A stretch of 36,356 bases of DNA. It comes from a virus. The notes below the pieces were generated by a model, which was not told the origin of the DNA, searched no databases, and saw nothing but the letters and a program-made list of their open reading frames with translations. Numbering within the stretch: position 1 is the stretch's first letter; each line of letters begins with the position of its first letter. The DNA is taken from the IMG/VR virus record IMGVR_UViG_3300024343_000049, positions 1 to 36,356 of that record; one strand, 5' to 3'. Positions 5,122-33,592 of the stretch are shown in pieces. The translations under genes were made by a program, and so were the position numbers.

Positions 5122-5141
5122 AGTCCTATTAGGTACCGTCT
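5122..5141 (-). promoter_or_regulatory. Putative phage RNA polymerase promoter A
   Basis: Minus strand reads AGACGGTACCTAATAGGACT, matching the shared motif of this genome. It points at the MazG-like gene; if transcription began at the G of TAATAGG, the leader would be about 16 bases and contain AAAGGA. It overlaps the end of the upstream gene, supplying its last codons and TAA plus an adjacent TAG stop. Promoter activity is inferred from repetition, position and orientation. Confidence 0.7.
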
Positions 5142-5506
5142 GTTTCTGGATTATAATCTGGGTGTAGCCTTTTAGCTTCATCAATCCCTGCCTGAATAGC
5201 AGTGAGGATACCTAGCCTTGTGAGTGCTTCTATCGCTTCTGGTGGGAAGTTGAATTGGTAGATAGCACTACCATCTTCGTTCTCTTTAATCAATGTTACG
5301 TTTCCTGTTCCTACTGTTGTCATGTGTTCTTCTCCTTCATATCTTCTCCACGCCACAGGCTCCTGCACAGGTGCTGAACGGGCTTGCTTGATGGCGGTGA
5401 TGGCTTTGGCAATATGCTCAGGGGTTGGTTCTTTTTCGTAGCGGCACGCCATGTCTTCAAGTTCCAACGCCTCCAGCGCCAGCTTCAGTGCTTCGTCTGT
5501 GGTCAT
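5129..5506 (-). CDS. Hypothetical phage protein with chimeric composition
   Basis: 125 codons. N-terminal residues 1-55 (EALKLALEALE, AITAIKQA, then PVQEPVAW) resemble a modular lead-in common in phages and prophages of beta- and gammaproteobacteria and are GC-rich by eye. The C-terminal half (FNFPPEAIEALTRLG, HPDYNPETDG) has the genome's usual AT-rich composition. The simplest reading is a recombinant of a transferred N-terminal module with a resident protein. Gene end and stop lie inside promoter motif A. The start overlaps the previous gene's stop (ATGA). No enzymatic motif is visible. Confidence 0.65.
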   Translation of the reverse strand: MTTDEALKLALEALELEDMACRYEKEPTPEHIAKAITAIKQARSAPVQEPVAWRRYEGEEHMTTVGTGNVTLIKENEDGSAIYQFNFPPEAIEALTRLGILTAIQAGIDEAKRLHPDYNPETDGT

Positions 5507-5787
5507 ACATCCTCCTCCGATAAAAACTCAGCCTTCACTAGATTAGCCGCAACGTGCCAATAGTTATGCGTTCCCCTAGCCGCCTCGTGTTGAATCATTA
5601 ATAAGTTGATAACGTCCTTCATGTACTGCTTACAAACGTAGTCTTCAACTAACTTGGTAAATTTCTTTAGTTCTTTAGTATAACCTTGAGACCAATCTAC
5701 TAGTTGTCCTTTGGGTTTCCAAGGTTCATCTCCCCATAAACAGAAGCCAGCCTCAGCAACCAAACGCTCGTATACATCTTTTTTCAT
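5503..5787 (-). CDS. Hypothetical protein
   Basis: 94 codons, mostly helical, with Trp-rich N-terminal segment (CLWGDEPWKPKG) and a C-terminal HNYWHVAANLVKAEF. No family recognised. ATGA overlaps link it on both sides: to the 27-codon membrane ORF upstream and the gene at 5129..5506 downstream, so it belongs to the same transcript. Confidence 0.65.
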   Translation of the reverse strand: MKKDVYERLVAEAGFCLWGDEPWKPKGQLVDWSQGYTKELKKFTKLVEDYVCKQYMKDVINLLMIQHEAARGTHNYWHVAANLVKAEFLSEEDV

Positions 5788-5867
5788 GTTAATGCTCCTA
5801 ATACCATTACAATAATATGCCCGATAAATAAACCTACTACGAAGTAAGCTACGTTTTCAATAGTCAT
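5784..5867 (-). CDS. Possible 27-aa membrane microprotein
   Basis: ATG 5867 to TGA 5784. Nearly the whole product is one hydrophobic helix (VAYFVVGLFIGHIIVMVLGA). It fills the gap between two genes, overlapping the upstream gene by 11 bases and the downstream ATG as ATGA, the pattern used by genuine genes here. No clear Shine-Dalgarno, so it would depend on coupled translation. Confidence 0.45.
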   Translation of the reverse strand: MTIENVAYFVVGLFIGHIIVMVLGALT

Positions 5868-6099
5868 CAGCGGTTTGCGCATCGATATGTCCTAACTTAA
5901 TCAAGATTTCTTTTATTTCTTTGGGTAGTATTGCTACGCCATCATAGTCAACTAGCTTAAAGTCATTATCAAACCATAAACCACCTCCACATTCATCACC
6001 TAAGTTCTTATGTTCGAAATAGCCATACTTAGCGATAGAATCAATTGCGACCTCAAAAGATCTTGTGTTAAGTACAGTATCAAAGTCGTATTGTGCCAT
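5857..6099 (-). CDS. Conserved-looking hypothetical protein
   Basis: 80 codons. Contains a glycine-rich ECGGGLWFDND stretch and a C-terminal helix (PKEIKEILIKLGH). No signal, membrane segment or catalytic motif that I recognise. Start overlaps by one base the stop of the GIY-YIG fusion gene (TAATG), consistent with co-translation. Confidence 0.65.
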   Translation of the reverse strand: MAQYDFDTVLNTRSFEVAIDSIAKYGYFEHKNLGDECGGGLWFDNDFKLVDYDGVAILPKEIKEILIKLGHIDAQTADDY

Positions 6100-6704
6100 T
6101 AGTCTTTCCTTAAGTTGTTAGACAAGTTGTAGTACATACCTGAGCGAGTAGCTTTCAGCTGCATAATCAGCATAGTCTCTAGCTCAAGCATCTCTTCATC
6201 AGTACCATATGCGAGTATAGTACGCATAAAGTCAACGGGATTACTTTTAATTTCCTCAAGAAGCTTTTCGGATGAACATATGTAGCCATCATCAGGACTA
6301 CCCTTATGTTTACCGATGTACTTCCTATCATTGAGATCTACCCACATGTATACGAAGGCTTCTCCTTCCTCTCTGCTAGGAATATCTTCTTCACGGACAG
6401 CTTCATTCTTGTCGTTACCTTCAAGATGATTTGTCCAGATCTCCTTTACATATGCCAGCATATGATCACCCTTAGGTGCTCGCCACATGACTACAAAGGA
6501 ATCTGTGCCTTCATTCTCACATAGGAAGTCGTATACCCACTTGTTATGTAGACCAGAGTACTCAGTACCATCGATTGTAACCTTGATCATAAGTTTATCT
6601 GAAGCAGAGGTGTAAGCCTCAACTTCATCTACCTTACATTCAAAGATATCGAAGTACTTATTACTTCCAGCCACAAACTTTGTGACGGTGTTAACTAGTT
6701 TCAT
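6099..6704 (-). CDS. GIY-YIG domain protein with novel N-terminal domain
   Basis: 201 codons. The C-terminal ~90 residues are a GIY-YIG fold: EAFVYMWVD, then RKYIGKHKGSPDDGYICSS, a FMRTILAYGT segment, and a Glu-rich helix (EEMLELETMLIMQL) ending in MYYNLSN; this pattern is common in phage GIY-YIG proteins. The N-terminal ~110 residues look like a mixed beta domain (FDIFECKVDEVEAY, DGTEYSGLHNKWVYDFL) I do not recognise. It may be the substrate or DNA-recognition part. It is the second GIY-YIG gene of the window, 5 kb from the first. Homing, restriction-like or repair roles are all open. Confidence 0.7.
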   Translation of the reverse strand: MKLVNTVTKFVAGSNKYFDIFECKVDEVEAYTSASDKLMIKVTIDGTEYSGLHNKWVYDFLCENEGTDSFVVMWRAPKGDHMLAYVKEIWTNHLEGNDKNEAVREEDIPSREEGEAFVYMWVDLNDRKYIGKHKGSPDDGYICSSEKLLEEIKSNPVDFMRTILAYGTDEEMLELETMLIMQLKATRSGMYYNLSNNLRKD

Positions 6705-6712
6705 TCTTACTC

Positions 6713-6904: not shown

Positions 6905-7277
6905 CATCATACTCCATGTTAACTATACGAGGAACTTTATCGAATACTTCTAAGGCAGTTAGTTTACCTCTGTATACGGGGTTATTAGTAAACTTTTTTA
7001 CGAAGGTGTTGTACTTGTAAGGGTTGTAGGTTACTACATCACCTTTAAACATTTCACCGATGGTACCAACATCAATTAGTGTTCCAGCTACACCAGCGTG
7101 TACGTTCTTTTTCCTTTCACGCAGTACTCGTTGACGACCAGCCTCAGATACTTTAAACTGAGTATGACCTAGCACGATTGAATGACTATGACCGATAACC
7201 TTACCTTTATTAGCGCCCTCAAGTGATTTAACACTAAAGAGGCGCTTGTGTAGGTTGAAGTACACAAACACCTTCAT
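6891..7277 (-). CDS. Conserved hypothetical phage protein
   Basis: 128 codons, basic. The N-terminus (MKVFVYFNLHKRLFSVKSLEG) and the segment KVSEAGRQRVLRERKKNVHAG resemble a protein family I have seen as hypothetical in many tailed phages of Proteobacteria. A nucleic-acid-binding role would fit the basic middle but nothing proves it. It is followed closely by the gene at 6713..6904 and preceded by the DUF3310 gene with a ten-base gap. Confidence 0.7.
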   Translation of the reverse strand: MKVFVYFNLHKRLFSVKSLEGANKGKVIGHSHSIVLGHTQFKVSEAGRQRVLRERKKNVHAGVAGTLIDVGTIGEMFKGDVVTYNPYKYNTFVKKFTNNPVYRGKLTALEVFDKVPRIVNMEYDDVDS

Positions 7278-7287
7278 AACTTACTCC

Positions 7288-7683
7288 TTATTTCCAGCCA
7301 GTTTCGACTCTACCAGTGCGATAGTAGTTAGCTAGGCATTGTGCATACCAAGAGATCTTAGTAGCATCTTGCTCTTTGGAATCTTTCTTTCCAAGTCGCA
7401 TAGAGTACTTATAGATTTGACCTAGCAAATGAGCCTCAACTCCTGAGTATCCTTCAAGAAGATCTTGCATTAACTCAATATATTGTTTACCAGCAGCTAC
7501 ACCTTTATAGTGTGTAGGGTTGATTTGATCCTTAGTAAGCTCATTAAGGTATTCAATACTACGCATTACCTCTTCTTCCTCCTCTTCAATAATAGGTTGA
7601 TTGTACCACTTGTTAGCAGACTTAAGCCATTTACTAGAGGCCATTTTATCATAGAAATCAGTTTGAGGTGTAGACATCGCCAT
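7288..7683 (-). CDS. DUF3310 protein, possible nucleotide kinase (T7 gp1.7-like)
   Basis: 131 codons. Residues about 52-125 follow the DUF3310 pattern: INPTHYKGV, then a helix, GQIYKYSMRLGKK and ATKISWYAQCLANYY. T7 gp1.7, a thymidylate/deoxyguanylate kinase, carries this type of domain, so a dNMP kinase role is plausible in a cluster rich in nucleotide enzymes. A run of six Glu (EEEEEE) precedes the domain. First ATG 7683 and third codon ATG 7677 share an AAAGGA; either could be used. Overlaps the upstream gene by 26 bases. Confidence 0.7.
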   Translation of the reverse strand: MAMSTPQTDFYDKMASSKWLKSANKWYNQPIIEEEEEEVMRSIEYLNELTKDQINPTHYKGVAAGKQYIELMQDLLEGYSGVEAHLLGQIYKYSMRLGKKDSKEQDATKISWYAQCLANYYRTGRVETGWK

Positions 7684-7918
7684 TTTCCTTTACTTTAGAG
7701 TCTTCATACGGTGAAACTAATCGGCGGTACATTTCGAGTTTACAACTCTCTAAGGCACCGACTACATCGTTCATAGTTACATATCGTTCTCCTTTATGCG
7801 CAAGATAGTCTAAGCAGACTGTAGTCAGGATATAGTTAAGCTCACCCGAGTCATTAGGCATACGGTGAGCGTAATCAACGTTAACATCCCAGCGTTGTTG
7901 TTTAGTGATATAAGGCAT
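7658..7918 (-). CDS. Conserved phage protein (MPYI... family, DUF6899-like)
   Basis: 86 codons from ATG 7918. An upstream ATG at 7972 is rejected because AGGAGG sits five bases before 7918 and the upstream gene stops one base earlier. The sequence matches a widespread small phage family by pattern: MPYI start, GELNYILTTVCLDYL, a NDVVGALESCKLEMYRRLVSPYEDSK core and KENGDVY end. Its biochemical role is unknown to me. Soluble, all-helical. Confidence 0.7.
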   Translation of the reverse strand: MPYITKQQRWDVNVDYAHRMPNDSGELNYILTTVCLDYLAHKGERYVTMNDVVGALESCKLEMYRRLVSPYEDSKVKENGDVYTSN

Positions 7919-7919
7919 A

Positions 7920-8513
7920 TCAACCTCCTGTGTGGTTTGGTATTGCGGGATGAGTATAGTTTGTATTTTCAAAGTAACTTTCTAAACGTTCATCCATCTT
8001 TTCGTAGTAGTCATCATCATCATAGTCGAGTTCATCAGACATAAAATCTTCTTCTTGATAGTCACCGTTAACGTAGTAACCGATATAGTTAACACCTTGT
8101 TCTACAAACGTGGCATTAACCTTAAAGTTAAAACGTTCAAAGAGTTCTGTATAGAATTTTATCGGGGGACTCCAAGCAGTATCAAAGTAGATTTCCATAC
8201 TATCACCATCAATAGAGAAAAACATATCATCTGATTGAGCATCCCACTTGGTTCCCCATTTTGATAAACACCAGTCGTACCAACCTGAATGACCGTATTT
8301 TTCTAGCAAAGATTCTCTTAGCGCATTCTTTTCATCTGCATCTTCACCACCGAATGAACCAGTACGTGGATCGTTTAGTTCTGGCGGGATTGGAATAAAG
8401 AAAGACATTAGACCACCTCCTTCTTTAAGGTGGGTATCAAGTCTACGAATCATTTGAGCACTTTCATGCTCTGTGGCTGTAATAACTACTGCGTTTGCAC
8501 ACCAATTAGGCAT
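7920..8513 (-). CDS. Api92-like ferredoxin-fold protein (DUF1281 type)
   Basis: 197 codons. The start MPNWCANAVVI, the middle WCLSKWGTKWDA and the segment IYFDTAWSPPIKFY are signature pieces of Api92-like phage and plasmid proteins of unknown function. The C-terminal 55 residues are very acidic (DELDYDDDDYYEKMDE), outside the conserved domain. A truncated relative with the same IYFDTAWSPP segment lies at 10753..11031. The 3' end contains the AGGAGG that drives the next gene. Cytoplasmic. Confidence 0.75.
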   Translation of the reverse strand: MPNWCANAVVITATEHESAQMIRRLDTHLKEGGGLMSFFIPIPPELNDPRTGSFGGEDADEKNALRESLLEKYGHSGWYDWCLSKWGTKWDAQSDDMFFSIDGDSMEIYFDTAWSPPIKFYTELFERFNFKVNATFVEQGVNYIGYYVNGDYQEEDFMSDELDYDDDDYYEKMDERLESYFENTNYTHPAIPNHTGG

Positions 8514-8523
8514 TTTATTTCCT

Positions 8524-8610
8524 TTAAAGTTTTAGTTTCTTTTTAGAGAAGATTATTGCAAGCATCATTTTTAATGATATTAACGACAGTACTACTATCA
8601 ATACTTTCAT
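8524..8610 (-). CDS. Possible 28-aa membrane microprotein
   Basis: ATG 8610 overlaps the stop of the deoxyribosyltransferase-like gene as ATGA. The product is a hydrophobic helix (VLIVVLSLISLKMMLAIIF) with a lysine-rich tail (SKKKLKL), a single-pass topology with positive end inside. It fills the only sizeable gap here. Evidence is coupling and composition only. Confidence 0.45.
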   Translation of the reverse strand: MKVLIVVLSLISLKMMLAIIFSKKKLKL

Positions 8611-9017
8611 AGGTATTCCTCAATAAGTGTTTCACAAGCTTTATCTACGGTAGATCGCCATTCAGTAATTAATGACTCAAAGAAAGGATGGATATGATCA
8701 TCCTCAGCTTTGAAAGCTACAACAGGTTTACCTAGTGTATGTGAGGCATAGAATACTTCCATAGCAGTACCGTGTTTAGCTAGTTTAGGGTCATTAAGGT
8801 TTACTAATAAGATATCTGCTTCCCGAATATCTCGTAGGTCTAACTCGAAGATACGTTTCATGTAACGCTTTTCGAAGTTATGTAGTCTACGACATGGATC
8901 GAGGATATCATAGTGATCTTTTAGCAGAGATTTAGCAGTGTTACGCCAACCAGAAGCAGCATCAGAAGATACATGCTCCATTGGACCTGCAAGGTAGATA
9001 GTTCTACGCTTAATCAT
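8607..9017 (-). CDS. Nucleoside 2-deoxyribosyltransferase-like protein
   Basis: 136 codons. N-terminal IYLAGPM (7-13), then GWRNTAK, a LDPCRRLH segment, D-L-R-D-I-R-E-ADILLVNL (60-74), GTAMEV with E87 in the catalytic-Glu position, and a GKPVVAF strand match the nucleoside 2-deoxyribosyltransferase superfamily (Rossmann-like). Such enzymes exchange or hydrolyse the base of deoxynucleosides or monophosphates (compare DNPH1). In this phage it probably scavenges host nucleotides or removes unwanted dNMPs. Substrate not predictable. Start overlaps the small HTH gene by eight bases. Confidence 0.75.
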   Translation of the reverse strand: MIKRRTIYLAGPMEHVSSDAASGWRNTAKSLLKDHYDILDPCRRLHNFEKRYMKRIFELDLRDIREADILLVNLNDPKLAKHGTAMEVFYASHTLGKPVVAFKAEDDHIHPFFESLITEWRSTVDKACETLIEEYL

Positions 9018-9174
9018 TATATTCCTCTTCTAACATATCAACAAACATTACAACAGATAAGGCATCGTGTACCCAGTTTGTAGTAATATCGAGTTCATAG
9101 GCAATATCTTCTGGTATAACACCAGCATTGTATAGCTCATGAATTTGCAGATGTAGATCACTCATGACACTCAT
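9010..9174 (-). CDS. Small helix-turn-helix protein
   Basis: 54 codons, ATG 9174 (AGGA at seven bases) to TAA 9010. The segment LHLQIHELYNAGVIPEDIAY followed by ELDITTNWVHDALS reads as a helix-turn-helix of the sigma-factor/resolvase-like type, with a short acidic C-terminus. Similar tiny HTH proteins are common in phages and may bind DNA or act as transcription modulators. It lies in the operon just downstream of the SSB terminator. Target unknown. Confidence 0.6.
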   Translation of the reverse strand: MSVMSDLHLQIHELYNAGVIPEDIAYELDITTNWVHDALSVVMFVDMLEEEYND

Positions 9175-9176
9175 GG

Positions 9177-9371
9177 TTAGTTCCTTTCTTTTAGCATGAA
9201 ATACTCGTTAAGCAGAATAGCAACTTGGTTAGTATCTTGTACAGATACTTTTAGTGTAAGCCAATCACTGCTTTCTGTAACTACTTCCATTGATACAATG
9301 AAAGCATTACTAATGGACTCAACATAAAAATTGTTGTTACGTTGTTTAAAGTCTGAGAGATGATTTGTCAT
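9177..9371 (-). CDS. Small hypothetical protein
   Basis: 64 codons. N-terminal polar segment, then alternating beta-like residues (FIVSMEVVTESSDWLTLKVSVQD) and a helix (AILLNEYFMLKERN). First gene after the SSB terminator, two bases before the HTH gene, with AAAGGA before its ATG. No family recognised. Confidence 0.6.
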   Translation of the reverse strand: MTNHLSDFKQRNNNFYVESISNAFIVSMEVVTESSDWLTLKVSVQDTNQVAILLNEYFMLKERN

Positions 9372-9392
9372 TATGTGTCCTTTATGATTGAA

Positions 9393-9436
9393 TAAAAAAT
9401 CTCTACAAAGAATCCGTTAGGAATCTTCATAGAGAT
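9393..9436 (-). terminator. Intrinsic terminator after SSB
   Basis: On the minus strand: ATCTCTA, an inner AAGATTCC-TAAC-GGATTCTT stem with one T-T mismatch, TAGAGAT, then TTTTTTA. A 7-bp outer stem, extended inner stem and U-run immediately downstream of the SSB stop. It should separate abundant SSB message from the downstream operon, fully or partly. Confidence 0.8.
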
Positions 9437-9442
9437 ATGTGT

Positions 9443-9955
9443 TTAGAACATTCCTTCTTCTTCAGTAGCAGGAGTACCCTCAGGCATTTCTTCATCGAAG
9501 TCTACGAAGTTAGTGTTCTTTGGTTCGTACTTAATCAAGTCAACTACTTGTACAGCAGTCAACATTGTAGAGGTACCTTCTTTTGTTACTTTACCGTTAG
9601 GTGCTTTGATCTGATAGTCTTGTTGGAAGACAATAACGTTACCAACAGAACCATTACCGATGGTCTTAGAGTCGATAGGATTTTTAGAAGAATCTACAAC
9701 TCGTACCTTAGCAGCTTCAGAACCATCTTTCTTAATAGCTTTCTTCTTGAGCTGTACTGCAACAGTATTAGGCTCAAAACCAGCTTTCACCTTACCAAAC
9801 TTAGCAAGTTCAGATTCACGCTTCTTAGGAACTTGAATAGAGAGTTCCCATTGATCAGTACCGAAGGGTGATACTGGCTTATCGAGTTTAGCCCAGTACA
9901 ACTTTACTTCTTTGATCATAACGTTAGAACCAGTGTTGTTAATAGAATCAGTCAT
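9443..9955 (-). CDS. Single-stranded DNA-binding protein (T7 gp2.5-like)
   Basis: 170 codons (T7 gp2.5 is 232). The body is a lysine-rich beta protein consistent with an OB fold (KEVKLYWAKLDKP, FGTDQWELSIQVPKKRE, KVRVVDSS). The C-terminus is acidic and ends in an aromatic residue (DFDEEMP ... EEEGMF), the signature used by T7 gp2.5 to contact polymerase and helicase. It is the first gene of the minus-strand replication arm, with AAAGGA before the ATG, a 7-bp hairpin in its leader and its own terminator. Strongly supported by tail and context, though the fold is inferred. Confidence 0.75.
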   Translation of the reverse strand: MTDSINNTGSNVMIKEVKLYWAKLDKPVSPFGTDQWELSIQVPKKRESELAKFGKVKAGFEPNTVAVQLKKKAIKKDGSEAAKVRVVDSSKNPIDSKTIGNGSVGNVIVFQQDYQIKAPNGKVTKEGTSTMLTAVQVVDLIKYEPKNTNFVDFDEEMPEGTPATEEEGMF

Positions 9956-9980
9956 TTTGTGTCCTTTAAGAGTTTAGTGT

Positions 9981-9997
9981 TAGCGAATAGTTCGCTA
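9981..9997. repeat. Inverted repeat in SSB leader
   Basis: TAGCGAA-TAG-TTCGCTA, a perfect 7-bp inverted repeat with a 3-base loop, in the divergent region between SSB and small terminase. It abuts promoter B and lies in the untranslated leader of SSB, so it could be an operator or an mRNA hairpin for SSB control. Confidence 0.6.
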
Positions 9998-10016
9998 GAT
10001 GGTACCTAATAGAGAT
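9997..10016 (+). promoter_or_regulatory. Putative phage RNA polymerase promoter B
   Basis: AGATGGTACCTAATAGAGAT; matches the shared motif except A for G after TAATAG. It points at the small terminase gene, whose ATG lies 25 bases further with AAAGGA between. Inferred promoter. Confidence 0.65.
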
Positions 10017-10040
10017 TTTACTCTACTATAAAGGAACCAT

Positions 10041-10433
10041 ATGTCAGGTGGAAAAGCAAGAAATGTTAACTCATTAGCTAATCTTAAAGTAATTACTTCA
10101 GATACAGCTAAGGAAAACCAAAAGAAAAGTGTTCAATCACGACTAGCTAATATTCAAGCAAGAGAAGCTTTTAAACTCTCTGCTAAGAACTTTAAAGCAG
10201 TCATGGATGAACTTCCAGAAATGTCCTCCTTGGATGTTATTAAGATGGCTATGCTACAAGCTCTTCAAGAAGATAACTTAGAAGATGCAGCTCGATATGC
10301 TAGTATGCTAGCAGAGTATCAGGCACCTAAACTCCAACGTATTGAACAGAACACTACTACTAGAGTCTCTGATATGTCGGATGAGGAACTCCAGAGAATT
10401 ATCTTTCAAGAAGGTCTTGAAGATAAGTCTTGA
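10041..10433 (+). CDS. Probable small terminase subunit
   Basis: 130 codons. Mostly helical, with a basic N-terminus (MSGGKARNVNSLANLK), a central VIKMAMLQALQEDNLEDAARYASMLAEY region and a C-terminal DMSDEELQRII motif preceded by KLQRIEQN, the ending seen in many small terminases. It would recognise DNA ends or pac sites for the large terminase. It has its own promoter motif and terminator and is separated from the large subunit by 4.3 kb of opposite-strand genes. Assignment rests on pattern and context rather than a diagnostic motif. Confidence 0.6.
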   Translation: MSGGKARNVNSLANLKVITSDTAKENQKKSVQSRLANIQAREAFKLSAKNFKAVMDELPEMSSLDVIKMAMLQALQEDNLEDAARYASMLAEYQAPKLQRIEQNTTTRVSDMSDEELQRIIFQEGLEDKS

Positions 10434-10443
10434 AAGAGACTCT

Positions 10444-10477
10444 AAAGAGAATATTCATTAAGGATATTCTCTTTTTT
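10444..10477 (+). terminator. Intrinsic terminator after small terminase
   Basis: AAAGAGAATAT - 9-base loop - ATATTCTCTTT, an 11-bp perfect stem followed by a T-run. It begins 11 bases after the stop codon. The minus strand lacks a strong U-run, so it is mainly a plus-strand terminator. Confidence 0.85.
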
Positions 10478-10522
10478 ATTTCTCTTTATTAATAATATCT
10501 ATATGATACTATTTACTGGAAA

Positions 10523-10542
10523 TTCCCTATTAGGTACCGGCT
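10523..10542 (-). promoter_or_regulatory. Putative phage RNA polymerase promoter C
   Basis: Minus strand AGCCGGTACCTAATAGGGAA, a full match to the shared motif. It points left, into the back of the small terminase gene and on towards SSB, so its transcript would be antisense to the former before reaching the latter. Confidence 0.65.
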
Positions 10543-10546
10543 AAAG

Positions 10547-10756
10547 TTAGATTTCTAATTCATCTTGAACCTCCATAGCGTTTGATGGTAAATAACCTAC
10601 AGACTGTACATAGCGACTGTTACTCACAAAGTACATCTCTAGGGACTTGATATCATAGTACAGTCCATTAGGTACATTCCAGACATCTCTGGAGTACCAT
10701 ATGGAAGGAGCTATGACAGGTGTGAGAGTTAGTATGGGATAGGCTTTAGTGTTCAT
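10547..10756 (-). CDS. Hypothetical protein
   Basis: 69 codons; aromatic and beta-rich (PSIWYSRDVWNVPNGLYYD, MYFVSNSRYVQSVGYLPSN). Last gene of the minus-strand accessory cassette; ATGA overlap with the truncated Api92-like gene, so the two are co-translated. No family recognised. Confidence 0.6.
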   Translation of the reverse strand: MNTKAYPILTLTPVIAPSIWYSRDVWNVPNGLYYDIKSLEMYFVSNSRYVQSVGYLPSNAMEVQDELEI

Positions 10757-11031
10757 TCGTTATCCTCGATAATTAGCCCGAATTTTAACCTGAAATTTAT
10801 AAGTTTACCTGCAACAATATCTATAAGATATATCTCTGCATCGTTGTACTCATGATCAGATAGGTTGTTAAGATATGCTTCAGCATTGGCTTTTAGGTAT
10901 ACAAGGGAGTTGCCTTGATAGAATACTTTATTATCATAGGCATCATAACCGATGTATGTGAAGGGACAATCGGAATACTTACTTTTATAAATAGCCATAG
11001 GTGGACTCCAAGCAGTATCAAAGTAGATCAT
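10753..11031 (-). CDS. Truncated Api92-like protein
   Basis: 92 codons from ATG 11031, chosen because GAGGAG lies seven bases upstream. It opens with IYFDTAWSPP, the segment found at about residues 108-117 of the full-length Api92-like protein at 7920..8513, so the conserved N-terminal half is missing. The rest (FTYIGYDAYDNKVFYQG) keeps a shorter version of the YIGYY region of that protein, then diverges. Intact start and Shine-Dalgarno suggest it is expressed, as a reduced paralog rather than a decayed remnant. Confidence 0.6.
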   Translation of the reverse strand: MIYFDTAWSPPMAIYKSKYSDCPFTYIGYDAYDNKVFYQGNSLVYLKANAEAYLNNLSDHEYNDAEIYLIDIVAGKLINFRLKFGLIIEDNE

Positions 11032-11203
11032 TATCAAACTCCTCAAAAGATAGAAAGTCATTTTGCTCTTCAACAGACATTCCGTAGAACGTTTGGTAGT
11101 GTACTTCACCACAACATTGGAAGGAATGTTTCTGAGTACCACAATAGCAACAATACAGGGTAGTGTCGCTAAGTAGCTCTTGTATTCGTTCTTCTTTAGT
11201 CAT
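11018..11203 (-). CDS. Small Cys-rich (zinc-ribbon-like) protein
   Basis: 61 codons. Cysteines in YCCYCGTQKH and FQCCGEVHYQTF could bind zinc; similar C-C-G-E-x-H-x-x-T segments occur in small phage hypotheticals. C-terminus acidic (SFEEFDNDLL). The 3' end holds the GAGGAG used by the next gene. Overlaps the upstream gene by eight bases. Confidence 0.65.
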   Translation of the reverse strand: MTKEERIQELLSDTTLYCCYCGTQKHSFQCCGEVHYQTFYGMSVEEQNDFLSFEEFDNDLL

Positions 11204-11372
11204 ATAGCTTTTCCTTATCGAGTTCTTTAAAGAGTGTGTTGAGGAATATGTGGAATGTTACAATATTTGGTGTGTCGAGGTTCTTTACATGTTTCCAGTA
11301 AGAGTTGTTTAGGGATTTGTCGGTGGCGAATAGTTCTGAGGTGAACTGTTCTTTGAGAGTTTTTGTAGTCAT
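11196..11372 (-). CDS. Small hypothetical protein
   Basis: 58 codons, ATG 11372 to TAA 11196. Helical, polar (TLKEQFTSELFATDKSLNNS, FHIFLNTLFKELDKEKLYD). Weak Shine-Dalgarno. It is the first gene after the 162-base non-coding block. No family recognised. Confidence 0.55.
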   Translation of the reverse strand: MTTKTLKEQFTSELFATDKSLNNSYWKHVKNLDTPNIVTFHIFLNTLFKELDKEKLYD

Positions 11373-11534
11373 ATATTACTTTCTTTGTTTAACTTTTGAT
11401 ACCCGCACAAGATTTACCCCAAAAACCTCCATCTAGCTACATTCTCAGCTACGATACCCTGAGAAATATACTCAGAGAGCAGCAGAAAGGTACCTAGACG
11501 AGGCTTTTGTGTGTATACCTATATAGGTACTATG
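11373..11534 (-). promoter_or_regulatory. Non-coding block with palindromes and degenerate promoter-like motif
   Basis: No gene seen. Contains TTCTCAG (11442-11448) pairing with CTGAGAA (11459-11465), and a further CTCAG (11471-11475) that could compete, so alternative hairpins are possible. A perfect 14-base palindrome TACCTATATAGGTA lies at 11516-11529; on the minus strand GTACCTATATAGG resembles the shared promoter motif with one extra base. It faces the genes at 11372 and below. Confidence 0.4.
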
Positions 11535-11783
11535 TTAATTACTTAAAATGTCCTCTTGAGCCAACTCTTGGCTTCTGTATCGCTTAACATTTCCCCTGAT
11601 AACATCATCAAAGTAGTCGATATCTAGGTCAGCTTCCCTAAGTTCTTCTTTAAATACCTCACTCATCTTCTTTATTGTTAGCAAATGACCTGTCCAGTCA
11701 TGAGGTTGTCCATAGGTATCCTCAAATGCACCAATTAAATCGAGATATGCATCGAGAATTGCTGAGGTTTGTTTGGTATTCAT
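11535..11783 (-). CDS. Hypothetical protein
   Basis: 82 codons, helical and acidic (EVFKEELREADLDIDYFDDVI), with a Trp/His segment (GQPHDWTGHLL) in the middle. ATGA overlap with the gene upstream. No family recognised. Confidence 0.6.
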   Translation of the reverse strand: MNTKQTSAILDAYLDLIGAFEDTYGQPHDWTGHLLTIKKMSEVFKEELREADLDIDYFDDVIRGNVKRYRSQELAQEDILSN

Positions 11784-12022
11784 AGTACTTTCTCCTCTTG
11801 GTCATACACTTCGTTGTAATTTACCACACAACCCTCTAAATCTACTGTGTTACAGAGATTTTCGATGGTAGTTAGGTCTTTTGCAGTAGCAAATACATTA
11901 TGAACTCCTGCATGATCTACAGAAAGCACTGCCTCACAGCTAAATTCTGCGAGAGATTCAATGATTTCTTCAATCGAGGTGCCTACGTTGTCCTCATTTA
12001 GTGGTGTTAGCAGCATATACAT
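11780..12022 (-). CDS. Hypothetical protein
   Basis: 80 codons, acidic, predicted alternating strand/helix (IEEIIESLAEFSCEAVLSVD, NVFATAKDLTTIENL). AAGGAG eight bases before the ATG, the same leader style used by the next genes upstream. No family recognised. Confidence 0.65.
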   Translation of the reverse strand: MYMLLTPLNEDNVGTSIEEIIESLAEFSCEAVLSVDHAGVHNVFATAKDLTTIENLCNTVDLEGCVVNYNEVYDQEEKVL

Positions 12023-12033
12023 GTCAATTCTCC

Positions 12034-12186
12034 TTAGATAAGCTTATAGCTGTTCATGTAGTTAACGAAACTGATACGCTTCCTGCGTAATACAGTACCT
12101 ACCCAGAAGTCCCAGGTATCTGCGTCAGAAGCGTAAGGGAAAATCAGGTAGAGATTACCTGAGATGTACTTGAGTTGTGGTTTCAT
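12034..12186 (-). CDS. Small hypothetical protein
   Basis: 50 codons with AAGGAG seven bases before ATG 12186. Basic and aromatic (ISGNLYLIFPYASDADTWDF, VLRRKRISFVNYMNSYKLI). Its stop merges with the Shine-Dalgarno of the next gene (TAAGGAG), as do others in this cassette. Confidence 0.65.
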   Translation of the reverse strand: MKPQLKYISGNLYLIFPYASDADTWDFWVGTVLRRKRISFVNYMNSYKLI

Positions 12187-12197
12187 CTGTATTCTCC

Positions 12198-12305
12198 TTA
12201 GTAGATGATTACTTGGTAATTCTCAGGCGAGTATTCGTTGAGAATGGCTGGGTTTGTGGTCTTCGCCACTAAGACTTGTGTCAAGCGATGGTAGATGAAG
12301 TACAT
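12198..12305 (-). CDS. 35-aa microprotein
   Basis: ATG 12305 with AAGGAG six bases upstream; TAA at 12198 fused to the next Shine-Dalgarno. Product begins MYFIYHRLTQVLVAKTT. Too short to classify; the regular spacing and strong ribosome site support translation. Confidence 0.55.
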   Translation of the reverse strand: MYFIYHRLTQVLVAKTTNPAILNEYSPENYQVIIY

Positions 12306-12315
12306 GGTTATCTCC

Positions 12316-12669
12316 TTAAATAGCAATCAAGCCAACAAAGTATGAGTCAGTTGTGTATTTGCGACCATTAACACTAGTAGCAAAGAACACTACCTCTTGA
12401 TTAACCCTTTTAGCAAGGCGATTGTATATATCGCTAGTAGTTAATGTTGTGTTAAAAGTTTTGTTTACCGTCTTTGTTACAACAGCCCTAGTTCTAAAGT
12501 CAGAACAGATAGCAACAACACGATCACCTTGATTTAAGATGATCTTGATTGTCACTGGTTCAGACACAGAAACATCTGGCAAACTGAAGAGCTTGCTTAG
12601 TCGAGCGTTCTCAGCAGAGGAGAAAGCAGAGGTAAAAGCAGAGGTAAGATTGAGAGTAGCCGTTGTCAT
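12316..12669 (-). CDS. Hypothetical protein
   Basis: 117 codons, Thr/Ser/Val-rich, probably beta (TIKIILNQGDRVVAICSDF, RTRAVVTKTVNKTF, EVVFFATSVNGRKY). AAGGAG six bases before the ATG. The 102 bases upstream (12670-12771) are non-coding, with a small AGAGG/CCTCT hairpin at 12719-12733 and a possible 13-codon leader ending in ATGA at this start. Confidence 0.65.
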   Translation of the reverse strand: MTTATLNLTSAFTSAFSSAENARLSKLFSLPDVSVSEPVTIKIILNQGDRVVAICSDFRTRAVVTKTVNKTFNTTLTTSDIYNRLAKRVNQEVVFFATSVNGRKYTTDSYFVGLIAI

Positions 12670-12771
12670 TGTAATCTCCTTGAGTAATGACAGCCTATGA
12701 TCCGCATAGGAACGGTGTAGAGGAAAACCCTCTTAGAAGCACCCTGAAGGATGCAACTAGGAAAGCTCTCT

Positions 12772-12939
12772 TTAGAGTTCAGGAGCAGGACGGAACTCCA
12801 CAAGCTCACCAAGCTCATCCGCAACGATGTTACACTCGGTGGCAACCAACTCTGCGTCAGCTTCAGACAGGCCCGAAGCGTACAGCTCATCTTCACGACC
12901 ATTGGCACAAGACCACACACACCAGTTTTTGTTTGTCAT
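12772..12939 (-). CDS. Small acidic hypothetical protein
   Basis: 55 codons, ATG 12939 (AGGAG seven bases before) to TAA 12772. Acidic (GREDELYASGLSEADAELVA, VADELGELVEFRPAPEL) with a WCVWSCANG start. Higher GC than the replication genes. Longer frames on both strands cross this locus but lack ribosome sites. No family recognised. Confidence 0.65.
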   Translation of the reverse strand: MTNKNWCVWSCANGREDELYASGLSEADAELVATECNIVADELGELVEFRPAPEL

Positions 12940-13028
12940 TTGACAACTCCTAACCCCAGAAACCCCTGAGGAACGGGACGAGCACAGCGCTCTCCAAGGG
13001 TCTCCGTAGAGACCTATGGGCAGTACTG
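12940..13028 (-). other. Structured gap
   Basis: 89 non-coding bases with GGTCTC-CGTA-GAGACC (12999-13014), a perfect 6-bp tetraloop hairpin, and a GAGC/GCTC element around 12979-12992. No T-run follows, so a terminator is unlikely; mRNA processing or stability elements are possible. Confidence 0.35.
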
Positions 13029-13361
13029 TTACGGCTTACCGTAGTAGTTATTCAAACCCTCATTGATCTGGTCCATTGTGGCATTACGCATACCAGGGTC
13101 ATCGTCATCCAAGAACCTAGAGAGTTCACAATTAATCCTAGCAGCATTAAGCAGCTTTTGCAGAGCCATCTCGGTGACAAGAGGATTGTCAACAGTGTAA
13201 GACTCTATTGCGTAGTCAACGCTCTCCTGTAAAGTGTCACAAGAAACCCTCCAAGCAATTAGAAGGTCACATCCCTGAAGACGATCAACAACGTCTTGGT
13301 CGTACCCATGAAGGGTCAAGGTCGTAATGTCTTGGTGAATAGTGTCAAGTCCGTTTGTCAT
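13029..13361 (-). CDS. Hypothetical protein
   Basis: 110 codons from ATG 13361, preceded by AAGGA at seven bases; an upstream in-frame ATG at 13475 lies inside the neighbouring gene and is rejected. Acidic, helical; contains CDLLIAWRVSCDTLQESVDY and a DDDDPG loop. The stop of the preceding gene provides part of the ribosome site. No family recognised. Confidence 0.6.
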   Translation of the reverse strand: MTNGLDTIHQDITTLTLHGYDQDVVDRLQGCDLLIAWRVSCDTLQESVDYAIESYTVDNPLVTEMALQKLLNAARINCELSRFLDDDDPGMRNATMDQINEGLNNYYGKP

Positions 13362-13371
13362 AGTAATTTCC

Positions 13372-13866
13372 TTAGAAAGGTGCGTCAATAGAATAGTCAT
13401 ACTGCTCACGAGTGAGCCTCCTAGCCTCAGCAAGGTTATGGAAGGCAATGTCGCGGTAATAAGCAACAGCATCACGGTACTCAGCGTCTGAATCGGAGCT
13501 TTTCTTTCTGCTCAAGGTAGGAAGGAACACCCAAGAGTAAGTATCCCACCAAGCAACAAGAGGAGCAGAAGGTTCACGACCAGACATCCAGTGAGGACAG
13601 CCCTTAGACCGCCACCACTTTAAGTGCCTGTACACAGAGTTAGGAATATCACAGCCACGAAGAGCCATATCAAGAATCTCAGATTCAAAGTCACCAGAGA
13701 AAGAAGCGTCTTGCTGGAGATCACCAGCAACAGCCCGAGAGAGCTTAGGACGAGACCGAAGGTAAGAGACAGGCGCATAAGACCCACAAGGATGTGAGAC
13801 CATTACACCATCACGGATGTCAACGCGTTTACGAACAAGAAGGTTAACAGTGTTAAAGCGTTTCAT
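13372..13866 (-). CDS. Hypothetical protein, largest of the accessory cassette
   Basis: 164 codons. Basic N-terminus (MKRFNTVNLLVRKRVDIRDG), Trp-rich middle (HLKWWRSKGCPHWMSG, LVAWWDTYSWVFLP) and an Ala/Tyr helix near the end (YRDAVAYYRDIAFHNLAEARR). GGAG seven bases before the ATG lies in the end of the upstream gene. A is under-represented on the coding strand compared with downstream genes. No family recognised; a host-directed early protein is a guess from its position. Confidence 0.6.
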   Translation of the reverse strand: MKRFNTVNLLVRKRVDIRDGVMVSHPCGSYAPVSYLRSRPKLSRAVAGDLQQDASFSGDFESEILDMALRGCDIPNSVYRHLKWWRSKGCPHWMSGREPSAPLVAWWDTYSWVFLPTLSRKKSSDSDAEYRDAVAYYRDIAFHNLAEARRLTREQYDYSIDAPF

Positions 13867-13867
13867 T

Positions 13868-14035
13868 TTACATCTCCAGAGAGTTAAGACCGAAAGAACA
13901 AGCGAAGGTTAACAACCCACCACAGACGAGGAGCAACAAGCACTCCACAGGCGGGAACATAAACAACGCACCAAGGAAAGCAAGCCCGATAGAGAGCAAG
14001 CCAAGAAGACCGAAGAAGCGAAAGAAGAAAGACAT
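13868..14035 (-). CDS. Small membrane protein, two hydrophobic segments
   Basis: 55 codons from ATG 14035 with TTGGAGG five bases upstream. Two hydrophobic stretches (residues about 3-27 and 32-48: LLSIGLAFLGALFMF and CLLLLVCGGLLTFAC) separated by PPVE suggest a hairpin inner-membrane protein. The coding strand is A-poor (four A in 13921-14040), which itself favours hydrophobic codons, so the membrane call needs caution. One base separates its stop from the next ATG. Confidence 0.6.
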   Translation of the reverse strand: MSFFFRFFGLLGLLSIGLAFLGALFMFPPVECLLLLVCGGLLTFACSFGLNSLEM

Positions 14036-14060
14036 AGGAACCTCCAAGAAAGAAAAAGAG

Positions 14061-14408
14061 TTAAGCAGCTTCAACACCAACGAACCAGGTATCAGGCGAG
14101 TAACCGAACGCAGCACAGAAGCGAACAGACGACCCAACACGAGCCGACAGACGAGAGAACACAAGGTCCACCGAGACCGAACGACCCAAGGCACGAGAGG
14201 CGTACGAAGGACGACAAACACGGACACGACCGTCCGAGCAGACCACAGAGACCGAGTCCACACCAGACACCGACACAGCCACAACCGACACGGGAGCAGA
14301 CCACCGAGCACGAGGAACGGAAGCCAACAGCGAGGAAGGACGAGGAGCAGCGACAGAGGAAGCAGCACCAAGGACGGGAAGAGAAGAAACAAAAGAAGAG
14401 AGAGACAC
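14061..14408 (-). CDS. A-depleted gene with GTG start, unknown function
   Basis: 115 codons if started at GTG 14408. GGAG at 14418-14415 sits six bases upstream, and its A is the only A on the sense strand from 14537 to 14258. The product has a Ser/Val/Ala/Pro-rich N-terminus (MSLSSFVSSLPVLGAASSVA) that could be a secretion signal, then a beta-like body (DSVSVVCSDGRVRVCRPSY, GRSVSVDLVFSRLSA) and a normal-looking end (FGYSPDTWFVGVEAA). The first 50 codons contain no A, so residues needing A are absent. Other frames are open too because stop codons need A; this frame is preferred for its ribosome site and realistic C-terminus. Confidence 0.5.
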   Translation of the reverse strand: MSLSSFVSSLPVLGAASSVAAPRPSSLLASVPRARWSAPVSVVAVSVSGVDSVSVVCSDGRVRVCRPSYASRALGRSVSVDLVFSRLSARVGSSVRFCAAFGYSPDTWFVGVEAA

Positions 14409-14520
14409 AACGAACTCCAGAAGCCACAGAGGAAGAAGAAGCGCGGGACCGCAGGGCAAGACGGCAACACGCAGGAGAGCGACCCACCAGAAGAGGGGGG
14501 ACACGAACGAGGAAGGGGCG
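14101..14520. other. Thymine-depleted (plus) / adenine-depleted (minus) tract
   Basis: By count, the plus strand has six T in 420 bases; 14258-14537 has one (14416). All other bases are common (roughly 38% A, 28% C, 33% G in the part counted). Covers most of the GTG-start gene and its leader. Effect fades downstream along the minus-strand transcript. 14409-14562 holds no gene that I can support. Confidence 0.9.
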
Positions 14521-14562
14521 AACCCAAACCAACACCCTGATTCTTTGACACAGAGAGAGGTA

Positions 14563-14594
14563 CCCCCCAAACATTCCCCCAAAAACCCTCCCCC
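14563..14594 (-). other. G-quadruplex motif in cassette leader
   Basis: Minus strand: G5-A-G3-TTTTT-G5-AATGTTT-G6. Four G-runs with loops of 1, 5 and 7 bases, a canonical G4 pattern, upstream of the A-depleted gene. It would be present in the nascent RNA and in the non-template strand. Confidence 0.6.
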
Positions 14595-14662
14595 AAAAAA
14601 TCCTAGGGGTTACCCAAAACCTAATACAAAATATTACTTTTAGAAATGTAATAAGAGTTATT

Positions 14663-14682
14663 AGTCGGTTCCTAATAGGAAA
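14663..14682 (+). promoter_or_regulatory. Putative phage RNA polymerase promoter E
   Basis: AGTCGGTTCCTAATAGGAAA; one T for A inside GGTACC. It points at the large terminase, with a short leader carrying AGGA. Two other palindromes flank it: TAATAA-GAG-TTATTA at 14649-14663 and ATACAT-TTT-ATGTAT at 14684-14698. The minus-strand cassette promoter must also lie near here but no convincing -10/-35 is seen. Confidence 0.65.
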
Positions 14683-14715
14683 TATACATTTTATGTATTT
14701 TATAGGACACAAGTA

Positions 14716-16347
14716 ATGAATAATAAAGAGAAGCTAGAAGCGCTGAGAGAACTCAAGAGAAGAGAAAAGCTAGCTGAATACAAGGATAACTTTGAGTTAT
14801 TTGCTAAAGAACAGATTAAGATCTTACCTAAAGATTCTTCGCAGGGCTTTCAGCCATTTACGTTTAATAGTGCTCAAAGTATTGTCAATGAACAAATTGA
14901 GAAACAGTTGAAAGAAACTGGTAGAGTTAGAGCGATTATATTGAAGGCACGGCAGATGGGTTTAAGTACCTATGCTACTGGTAGAGTCTTCTGGAAGAGT
15001 TATTTTAATGCCTATAACAAGTCAGTTGTTATGGCTCATGATACAGCTACCTCGGATGCTTTGTTTAGCATGTCGAGGAATACTATCGATAATATGCCTG
15101 AGCAGTTTAAACCTAAGTTCAAGAAGTCTAATGCTAAGGAGATCATGTTTGAACACAACGATTCAGGTTACAGATTATATACAGCTGGCTCGCCGGAGGC
15201 AGGCCGAGGAACTACACCGACTATTGCGCATCTTTCTGAGGTGGCTTTCTGGACTCACGATGAGAAGATTCTCGCGGGTATGTTCCAAGGTATTTCACAA
15301 GCTAAAGGTACAGAAGTAATTCTAGAGAGTACTGCTAATGGAGTAGGGAATGCCTTTCATAGGTTATGGCAGGGTGCCGTTAAAGGAGAGAATGAGTATA
15401 TTCCTATTTTTGTTCCTTGGTTTCTTATGGAAGAATACCGTAGAGAAGCCCCAGAGGGCTTTGAAAGAACCGATAAAGAAGAGATATTAGTTACTAGGTT
15501 TAAGTTAGATGATGATCAACTTTACTGGAGGAGACTAAAGATAGCTGAGGGTGGTGAGGATAAATTCCGTCAGGAGTACCCCGCTACAGCTGATGAAGCA
15601 TTTATTGTTTCAGGGGCTAACGTATTTAATATTGAGAAGCTAGCTGCTCTAGTACCCCAACCTATATTAGCTTCTAAGGAGTTTAACTTCGAGTCTAATA
15701 TGATGGAAGATAAGGATAGGGGATCAATAGAGATCTTTAAGTATCCTATGTTTGGAGATTCCTTTACTATTGGTGCTGATGTATCTTTAGGAGTAGGTAA
15801 AGATTCTTCTGCTGCAGTTGTTATGAATGCAGATAGAGAAGTATGTGCTGTATATAGAAACAATATGATAGATCCCTCTAAGTTTGGTGATCTTTTGTTT
15901 TACTTAGGTAGGTACTATAATAATGCTCTTTTAGCTGTAGAGTCTAACTCTATGGGTATTGCTACATTAAATAGGCTTACACAGATGCAGTACGTTAATA
16001 TGTACTATCAGACTAAGTTAGCTAATGTTTCTAAAGAAGAAGGTAACAGGATTGGATGGAGGACTACCTCAGCATCTAAGCCAGCTATTATTGGATTCTT
16101 AAAGAATGCTATCGATAATGAGGATATCTGGATTCCTTCTAGACTAGTTATTGGGGAGCTAATGAATTATGTGGCAGATGACTCAGGAAAAACTAATGCT
16201 ATCGTTGGTCATAATGACGATACTGTTATTGCTCTAGCTATTGCCCTTGAAGTTATTAGAACACATGGTGATAGATTAAAGAATAATAATGTACCCTTTA
16301 CACAGAAGATGGGCAACTTTCAACAGATAGAAACTAACTGGCTATAA
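14716..16347 (+). CDS. Terminase large subunit
   Basis: 543 codons. ATP-driven packaging motor and nuclease. ATPase: K77-A-R-Q-M-G-L-S-T85 (Walker A-like), IAHLSEVAFW with E175 (Walker B), ESTANG at 204-209 (coupling motif). RNase H-like nuclease: D355 in GADVSLG, E409 in AVESNS, D501/D502 in GHNDDT. Length and motif order are typical of T4/T7-type large terminases. AGGA before the ATG; promoter E just upstream. First gene of the long plus-strand structural transcript, while its probable small partner is 4.3 kb away. Confidence 0.95.
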   Translation: MNNKEKLEALRELKRREKLAEYKDNFELFAKEQIKILPKDSSQGFQPFTFNSAQSIVNEQIEKQLKETGRVRAIILKARQMGLSTYATGRVFWKSYFNAYNKSVVMAHDTATSDALFSMSRNTIDNMPEQFKPKFKKSNAKEIMFEHNDSGYRLYTAGSPEAGRGTTPTIAHLSEVAFWTHDEKILAGMFQGISQAKGTEVILESTANGVGNAFHRLWQGAVKGENEYIPIFVPWFLMEEYRREAPEGFERTDKEEILVTRFKLDDDQLYWRRLKIAEGGEDKFRQEYPATADEAFIVSGANVFNIEKLAALVPQPILASKEFNFESNMMEDKDRGSIEIFKYPMFGDSFTIGADVSLGVGKDSSAAVVMNADREVCAVYRNNMIDPSKFGDLLFYLGRYYNNALLAVESNSMGIATLNRLTQMQYVNMYYQTKLANVSKEEGNRIGWRTTSASKPAIIGFLKNAIDNEDIWIPSRLVIGELMNYVADDSGKTNAIVGHNDDTVIALAIALEVIRTHGDRLKNNNVPFTQKMGNFQQIETNWL

Positions 16348-23005: not shown

Positions 23006-23017
23006 GGAGAATTAAAC

Positions 23018-23887: not shown

Positions 23888-23897
23888 GGGGGTTTAT

Positions 23898-30518: not shown

Positions 30519-30527
30519 ATTAGCCAC

Positions 30528-30556: not shown

Positions 30557-30569
30557 AGGAGAAAAGAAA

Positions 30570-30926: not shown

Positions 30927-30928
30927 AT

Positions 30929-31527: not shown

Positions 31528-31563
31528 ATTTAAAATAACTTAAATAAAGACTAAACAAATAAA

Positions 31564-31995: not shown

Positions 31996-32010
31996 GAATG
32001 GAGAATAAAT

Positions 32011-32454: not shown

Positions 32455-32472
32455 TTATTAAGGAGGTGTACT

Positions 32473-32901
32473 ATGTTACCCTTACTTGGAAGTCTTGTTG
32501 AGATAGGTGGTACCTGGCTCAAAGGAAAACAAGAAGAAACAAAGGCTAAAGCAGAAGCTAGGTTAATAGAGATCTCTGCTGAAGCTGATATTAAGAAAGC
32601 TAAAGCAATTGCTGCTATTAATGCTGCTGAATCAGGTCAACAACAAGATTTTGATTTAGATAAAATTGCTATGGAACAAATGGGTAAGAGCTGGAAGGAT
32701 GAACTGGTACTAGTTATTTTCTTAGCACCTATGGTCATGGCATTTATTCCAGGTATGGAGAAGTATTCTTTAGCTGGATTCGAAGTAATTAAGAGTATGC
32801 CTGAGTGGTACCAGTATACTATTATCGGTATGATTGTAGTTATCTATGGTATGCGCGGTATGGTTAAACAATTAATTAGCAGTAAATTAAACATTAAATA
32901 A
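32473..32901 (+). CDS. Holin (3-TM GTA-holin type)
   Basis: 142 codons. An N-terminal amphipathic/charged helix (KGKQEETKAKAEARLIEISA), then SWKDELVLVIFLAPMVMAFIPG and PEWYQYTIIGMIVVIYGMRG. The W-K-D-E ... P-E-W-Y-Q pattern fits the three-TM holin of gene-transfer agents and related phages. It would permeabilise the inner membrane and release the M15 endolysin encoded two genes downstream. AAGGAGG site is strong. Confidence 0.75.
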   Translation: MLPLLGSLVEIGGTWLKGKQEETKAKAEARLIEISAEADIKKAKAIAAINAAESGQQQDFDLDKIAMEQMGKSWKDELVLVIFLAPMVMAFIPGMEKYSLAGFEVIKSMPEWYQYTIIGMIVVIYGMRGMVKQLISSKLNIK

Positions 32902-32911
32902 GGAGGTTACT

Positions 32912-33112
32912 ATGGTATTCCTACCTGTGCTATTCTATTGTTTAGCTAACAATGTTTGTCAATTCGATAATGGTGCTATATCAGCTAGCATCGAAGAATG
33001 TACTAATCAAAATAACAGGGCAGAGTTAGTTCTTAGAGCAGATCCTGATGTTATTGCTTTCCAGACCACTTGTCTTGATTTAAGTAAACCTAGAAAGGCT
33101 GATATTATTTAA
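32912..33112 (+). CDS. Small Cys-containing protein, possibly exported
   Basis: 66 codons. Hydrophobic start (VFLPVLFYCLANNVC) could be a signal or anchor; four Cys (C10, C16, C30, C54) could form disulphides in the periplasm. Lies between holin and endolysin, TAATG overlap with the latter, so a lysis accessory (spanin-like) is possible. AAGGAGG site. Confidence 0.6.
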   Translation: MVFLPVLFYCLANNVCQFDNGAISASIEECTNQNNRAELVLRADPDVIAFQTTCLDLSKPRKADII

Positions 33113-33573
33113 TGAAACTAAGTAAAAATTTTAGTTTAGAAGAACTTACAAAATCAGATTTAGCTATACGCTACGGTATAGATAATACACCTGATGAAAC
33201 CGTTACAGCTAATTTACAAAGATTAGTTGATAATATTCTACAACCATTAAGAGATAAATTTGGTCCAGTAATTATTTCTAGTGGGTATCGTAGCCCAGAA
33301 GTTAATTCCAAAGTAGGTGGCAGTAAAACTAGTCACCATTGTTTCGGTTACGCTGCTGATATTGAAATTCCTGGAGTTGATAATAAAGATTTAGCATTAT
33401 ACATTAAAGATAATTTTAAATTTACACAGTTAATACTAGAGTTTTATAAGCCTGGAGTGCCTGACAGTGGTTGGGTTCATGTGGCTTACAACGAGAATGA
33501 CCTTAAAGGCCAAGAGTTGACAGCAACTAAGGAGTCAGGTAAGACGCATTATAAGCCTGGCATCGTATTCTGA
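33112..33573 (+). CDS. Endolysin, peptidase M15 type
   Basis: 153 codons. Zinc peptidase cutting the peptide part of murein. S-x-H76-xx-G-x-A-x-D83 (SHHCFGYAAD) and GWVH123V supply the zinc ligands, with E110 the likely catalytic Glu. SGYRSPEVNSKVGG is the family's substrate-site loop. No signal peptide, so it relies on the holin. Last gene before promoter G. Confidence 0.85.
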   Translation: MKLSKNFSLEELTKSDLAIRYGIDNTPDETVTANLQRLVDNILQPLRDKFGPVIISSGYRSPEVNSKVGGSKTSHHCFGYAADIEIPGVDNKDLALYIKDNFKFTQLILEFYKPGVPDSGWVHVAYNENDLKGQELTATKESGKTHYKPGIVF

Positions 33574-33592
33574 GGCGGTACCTAATAGGAAT
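33573..33592 (+). promoter_or_regulatory. Putative phage RNA polymerase promoter G
   Basis: AGGCGGTACCTAATAGGAAT, full match, beginning on the last base of the endolysin stop and pointing at PhoH. A start at the G of TAATAGG would leave a leader of only about 9 bases before the TTG start. Confidence 0.7.

Follow-up and report, generated by a model that had tools for sequence, protein, structure and literature searches.

A predicted promoter family and its candidate T7-type RNA polymerase in a phage related to Roseobacter phage CRP-7

The 36,356-nucleotide (nt) stretch of viral DNA analysed here (IMG/VR record IMGVR_UViG_3300024343_000049, positions 1 to 36,356; hereafter the window) is a 36-kb fragment from an aquatic relative of Roseobacter phage CRP-7. 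It carries five copies of a short directional motif, which, judging from sequence, very probably serve as middle or late promoters for a T7-type single-subunit RNA polymerase that the phage itself encodes. In favour of this reading, a polymerase gene is present just beyond the window, the enzyme of a relative has a modelled structure matching T7 RNA polymerase, and promoter bases -9 and -8 covary with a residue of the specificity loop. Related records and loci are designated below by G or L and a number.

Five oriented sites and their consensus

An exact search with AGNYGGTWCCTAATAG retrieves precisely five sites in the window, at 5126-5141 (-), 9997-10012 (+), 10527-10542 (-), 14663-14678 (+) and 33573-33588 (+), the places and strands given in an initial annotation made from the letters alone. 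The pattern does not occur in 100 dinucleotide-preserving shuffles of the window, and the reversed, uncomplemented control has no match in the window itself; a loose scan allowing 3 mismatches returned 63 matches versus 60 expected. GGR follows TAATA in four of the five copies, as had been described, the exception being the copy at 9997 (TAATAGAGA). One further site-like match at 7759 (-) was set aside for its low score and because relatives retain it as part of a coding sequence.

Four copies lie upstream of a co-directional open reading frame (ORF), with 16, 29, 38 and 9 nt from the predicted +1 to the start codon. Promoter 1 (AGACGGTACCTAATAGGACT, 5122-5141, -; like the other four, an exact motif copy) has its predicted +1 at 5126, 16 nt before a leftward MazG-like gene (4820-5110; phrog_4856, E value 6e-15), and is predicted to serve this gene and then the deaminase, DNA polymerase A and exonuclease cluster; G001 has a homologous site at 49649, ahead of its own copy of this gene. 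Promoter 2 (AGATGGTACCTAATAGAGAT, 9997-10016, +; predicted +1 10012), which has its homolog in G001 at 55672, precedes by 29 nt a 130-residue ORF, the putative terminase small subunit (10041-10433, +). The predicted +1 of promoter 4 (AGTCGGTTCCTAATAGGAAA, 14663-14682, +) falls at 14678, 38 nt before the terminase large subunit gene (TerL, 14716-16347, +) and the late genes that come after it, and the motif upstream of TerL is retained in dozens of 80 related loci despite differing flanks. Promoter 5 (AGGCGGTACCTAATAGGAAT, 33573-33592, +; predicted +1 33588) lies 9 nt from the TTG start of a gene matching the PhoH family (33597-34280, +), and G001, G006, G011 and G013 have a comparable site and leader. 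The placement of these four copies before co-directional genes, with leaders of 9-38 nt, stands as first described, with the exception of the label "small terminase", since a family search with ORF 10041-10433 returned nothing to back that name.

The fifth site, promoter 3 (AGCCGGTACCTAATAGGGAA, 10523-10542, -; predicted +1 10527), has no co-directional ORF within 150 nt. It faces ORF 10041-10433 and is followed by an AT-rich leader, and the next co-directional ORF starts 572 nt off, beyond the antisense of that ORF. The convergent pair that it forms with promoter 2 is kept in 11 relatives (G001, G003, G005, G006, G008-G012, G015 and G016), most of which also have the AT-rich leader. Between ORF 10041-10433 and promoter 3 lies a terminator-like hairpin of 13 pairs with a T-run (10444-10474, +), with a comparable hairpin at the equivalent place in relatives, that probably ends the rightward transcript. 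Promoter 3 itself may supply leftward genes farther on, give rise to a short RNA, or have a priming role in replication like the one known from T7.

The initial annotation had proposed searching the relatives for both the motif and a T7-like polymerase, and both were found there. The motif is present at 110 sites in 17 related records, and the 81 different GGTW-type sites give the consensus of this phage and most relatives, T(-16) A G N Y G G T W C C T A A T A, then G(+1) R R A A. Conservation is complete at A(-15), G(-11) and G(-10) (81/81 each) and high at G(-14) (75/81), +4 A (72/81) and +1 G (70/81), with +2 G in 37/81. The predicted +1 falls outside ORFs at 93 of the 110 sites (random mean 7.8, maximum 16), and 72 have a co-directional ORF starting no more than 150 nt downstream (12.4 on average for random places, maximum 23); these counts are approximate because the greedy rule used for calling ORFs is simple, and its over-long calls mask some close starts (e.g. 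G001:1565 before TerL at 1601). Several oriented copies close before genes, sharing a conserved core, are the pattern of a T7-type promoter. In G004 and G007 the predicted +1 is 4 nt upstream of a tRNA-Met gene, and a G002 site likewise abuts one; since the gene begins about 4 nt past the predicted +1, tRNA-Met seems to be transcribed by the phage polymerase. The purine run past +1 and a tRNA 4 nt away would both fit a start at the G after the AT-rich stretch. The tRNA-Met genes that begin about 4 nt past a predicted +1 include those at L132:3425-3498, L104:7250-7323 and L127:11917-11990.

Two variants of the motif were also seen. A subclass ending in TAATACC instead of TAATAG lies chiefly in the gap that follows the polymerase gene in most relatives. 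The gene after the gap often resembles a ribonucleotide reductase (a putative name), and the subclass is possibly a weak or shifted start. In the more distant relatives L223-L228, the core variants CCTATAG and CCTAAAG replace CCTAATAG.

The polymerase and its covariation with the promoter

The initial annotation had predicted a single-subunit phage RNA polymerase encoded outside the window, and such a gene was indeed found 1.2 kb past its left edge. Contig L199 (IMGVR_UViG_3300027255_000140) shares window positions 1-1716, apart from 2 mismatches over these 1,716 nt, and runs past the left edge, via a primase/helicase-like ORF, to the gene of a T7-type single-subunit RNA polymerase of 732 amino acids (L199:2915-5110; start 1,199 nt past the edge), after which there is a motif copy of the TAATACC subclass (L199:5116). 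Another contig of the same metagenome, G053, has 99.99% identity to window positions 7084-16025, is identical to the window at 35804-36356 and extends 19 kb beyond the right edge. L199 and G053 share only 82% identity where they overlap, at the far end of L199, and therefore do not represent one strain throughout.

PF00940 (Pfam RNA_pol) is present in 12/12 relatives of 58-64 kb and in CRP-7, and a phmmer search with a relative's enzyme reached T7 RNA polymerase at 1.8e-28. Modelled with AlphaFold2 (mean predicted local distance difference test, pLDDT, 81), the G001 enzyme matches T7 RNA polymerase with a Z of 39, N4-type polymerases being next (Z 15-20), and matches the T7 polymerase-promoter complex 1cez with a Z of 32.7 over 623 residues. 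The relatives thus combine the Pfam RNA_pol family with the fold of T7 RNA polymerase, and the copy that goes with the window is seen on L199.

The strongest indication that this polymerase reads the motif comes from relatives in which both have changed (polymerase residues are numbered as in the G006 enzyme). G009, G010 and G012 are without GGTW sites and carry NAGNNG(T/A/G)CCCCTAATAG instead; their polymerases depart from the others within the hairpin HERKQRGTIKGIxGNKDGRVMHVIKV, with His in place of Gln595 and Arg in place of Met611. With the 80 polymerase loci added by a second scan, Met or Thr at residue 611 goes with GGTA, GGTT, GGTG, GGAA or GGAG at -11 to -8, and Arg or Asn with GTCC, GACC, GCCC or GGCC. 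Among 33 records, the pattern of the Arg/Asn class (GNCC, AGNNGNCCCCTAATA) is found in 11/11 Arg/Asn records and 0/22 others, and that of the Met/Thr class (GGWW, AGNNGGWWCCTAATA) in 12 records of its own class and 0 of the 11 with Arg or Asn. On a polymerase tree with one row per distinct enzyme, residue 611 and bases -9/-8 are concordant in all of the 62 enzymes for which both traits could be called (50 Met/Thr with non-CC, 12 Arg/Asn with CC), the promoter call being the majority of candidate sites on the contig, which amounts to one or two sites where contigs are short. The tree contains three independent switches, all concordant. In T7 RNA polymerase, bases -11 to -7 are contacted by the loop of residues 739-770, where Gln758 is placed at -8 and Arg756 is placed at -9 (PMC5937735). 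The force of the covariation argument lies in the exact concordance together with these contacts, and the covariation suggests that bases -11 to -8 are read by the specificity loop; Arg or Asn opposite a template-strand G would be chemically sensible.

None of these motifs accompanies the polymerases with Tyr/Ser at the two hairpin positions (L231-L234). L231 and L233 each contain repeats of TAGGTTCTTATGA, which may be the signal of the Tyr/Ser polymerases.

Weighing the explanations

By analogy with T7, host RNA polymerase would first transcribe the phage polymerase gene; the specificity hairpin of the product would read the major groove at bases -11 to -8, and the enzyme would melt the TAATA region and start at the G of TAATAG. 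The leftward transcripts would then cover nucleotide metabolism and replication genes, and the rightward ones packaging, head and tail genes.

Several points weigh against this account. The minor TAATACC class would place a C at +1, which is odd for a T7-type enzyme. A sign test over the three pairs gives a p of 0.25, and is unable to reach significance because there are only three independent switches. Residue 595 fits base -10 less well than 611 fits its bases: GGCC is paired with Phe in L229, and L222 retains Gln alongside a GTCC promoter, so residue 595 alone does not fix -10. The specificity hairpin is modelled poorly (pLDDT <50 at 588-618) and its sequence alignment to T7 is ambiguous; because of this low confidence, the matching of residues 595 and 611 to T7 748 and 758 is not structural proof. 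Finally, the exact polymerase sequence of the window's own phage is inferred, because the L199 population differs elsewhere (82% identity).

Other readings of the sites deserve consideration. The initial annotation had itself raised an operator, with the near-palindrome CCTA-A-TAGG bound by a phage or host regulator of the downstream genes, and the position of the sites directly upstream of genes would suit it, as would the fact that CCTAATAGG is nearly identical on both strands. However, conservation is asymmetric, with CCTAATA near fixed, the right-hand GG variable, and A(-15), G(-11) and G(-10) fixed upstream, and the orientation of the sites follows the genes. An operator is extremely improbable because the TAATACC class breaks the near-palindrome and because an operator would not be expected to track a polymerase residue, as these bases do. 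It is very unlikely that TAATAG acts as the -10-like box of a promoter used by host RNA polymerase or by a sigma factor of the phage: TAATAG is AT-rich and close to gene starts, but no conserved -35-like block accompanies it (between 20 and 6 bases ahead of the GG, no position exceeds 0.39 bit), leaders of 9-38 nt counted from the G leave little room, and sigma-70-like sites are not in excess in the first 18 kb (39 versus 46 in shuffles). Such a promoter would also leave the covariation with a single-subunit polymerase unexplained. We give almost no credence to an RNA leader element or processing site within polycistronic transcripts, which would not mark a start at all. Some copies do sit at the ends of upstream ORFs, such as that at 5126-5141, but copies between divergent operons (14663) or 4 nt before tRNA genes would head the transcript, and the upstream half of the motif (-16 to -8) is equally fixed and covaries with the polymerase.

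A more far-reaching version of the T7-type promoter reading can be formulated, in which residue 611 (Met/Thr versus Arg/Asn) sets bases -9/-8, entire genomes have switched every promoter to a new code on three or more occasions, and the conserved promoter against ORF 10041-10433 primes replication like phi1.1A/B at the T7 origin. Taken as a whole, we regard this version as possible but rather doubtful.

Relation to known phages and polymerases

The phage is outside Autographiviridae by genome plan and head genes. Instead of the T7-like plan with all genes on one strand, its genes occupy both strands, and its capsid and portal match SU10 families rather than T7-like head genes. CRP-7 (MK613349) is its closest isolate, with the nearest TerL (59% identity), an RNA polymerase at 32.5% identity, and the same order of DNA polymerase, exonuclease, primase and RNA polymerase. 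This 58-kb short-tailed phage had its RNA polymerase annotated in 2019 as distant from Autographivirinae, with <25% identity, in a paper whose main text does not mention promoters (PMC6918029). CRP-7 differs in having its own motif, TATAGTCCMYTATTAAAAGGR, which we obtained by reading the sequence upstream of genes, an 11-mer repeat search of CRP-7 being swamped by A/G-rich coding repeats. Each of its five copies is upstream of a gene, one of them 25 nt upstream of the CRP-7 polymerase gene. In full it reads TATAGTCC(C/A)(C/T)TATTAAAAGG(A/G), with one copy beginning TGTA, and it includes an AAAAGG region (TATAGTCCMYTATTAAAAGG). It has GTCC in common with the Arg/Asn class, and the CRP-7 polymerase has Asn at the aligned position.

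CRP-7 and the window group also share a thymine-depleted tract. In the window it occupies 13911-14537 (627 nt with 17 T on the terminase-coding strand), and it is not an assembly error, because L008 and L239 match the window there at 99.96-99.99%. Such a tract lies about 98-330 nt upstream of TerL in 15/16 related records, CRP-7 not counted, and can be extreme (861 nt with 10 T; score 731 versus at most 44 in shuffles). Its composition is conserved and its sequence only patchily so. That of CRP-7 (700 nt, 11 T) is 3.1 kb upstream of TerL, at the end of the record. A role in packaging or at the terminus is a guess. Within the replication cluster, a SegE-like GIY-YIG endonuclease gene (567-986) overlaps the end of the exonuclease gene.

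Compared with the T7, T3, SP6 and K11-type promoters of Autographiviridae, the motif would make a similarly compact promoter of about 20 base pairs (-16 to +5). Shared with them would be a purine start behind an AT-rich, TATA-like stretch and specificity set by bases -11 to -8; each genome has several copies, and the polymerase fold is the same. The motif differs by a nearly fixed G at -14 in place of the AT-rich upstream block, and the polymerase is about 150 residues shorter than that of T7 (732 versus 883), has no alignable counterpart of T7 residues 90-104, and belongs to genomes with genes on both strands and an SU10-type capsid. To our knowledge, none of T7, T3 and SP6 has the consensus TAGNYGGTWCCTAATAGRRAA. 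The EM1 RNA polymerase offers a precedent, as a T7-like polymerase and promoter taken from metagenome DNA and then tested in vitro; the EM1 promoter, TCAGAAGTCACACTATAA, has an unrelated consensus, and the EM1 phage genome is 41 kb (PMC9596486). By fold and logic, the predicted pair belongs to the known T7-type kind. What appears to be new is its consensus: an exact-motif literature search, judged by titles and abstracts, brought up no paper using the motif as a promoter, and our other literature searches found no promoter consensus for this phage group.

Known here as metagenome contigs except for CRP-7, this phage group now has a candidate promoter consensus and the polymerase to go with it, so that the transcription units of these genomes should be readable from sequence. 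Polymerases of about 732 residues lacking an alignable T7 AT-rich recognition loop may reveal a different way of reading the upstream element. The matched set of signals (GGTW, GGAA, GTCC, GACC, GCCC and GGCC) suggests how a single-subunit polymerase shifts specificity while all the promoters of a genome follow, and the matched pairs are candidate orthogonal polymerase-promoter pairs. The joint change of signal and polymerase among these relatives would thus be a natural record of specificity switching.

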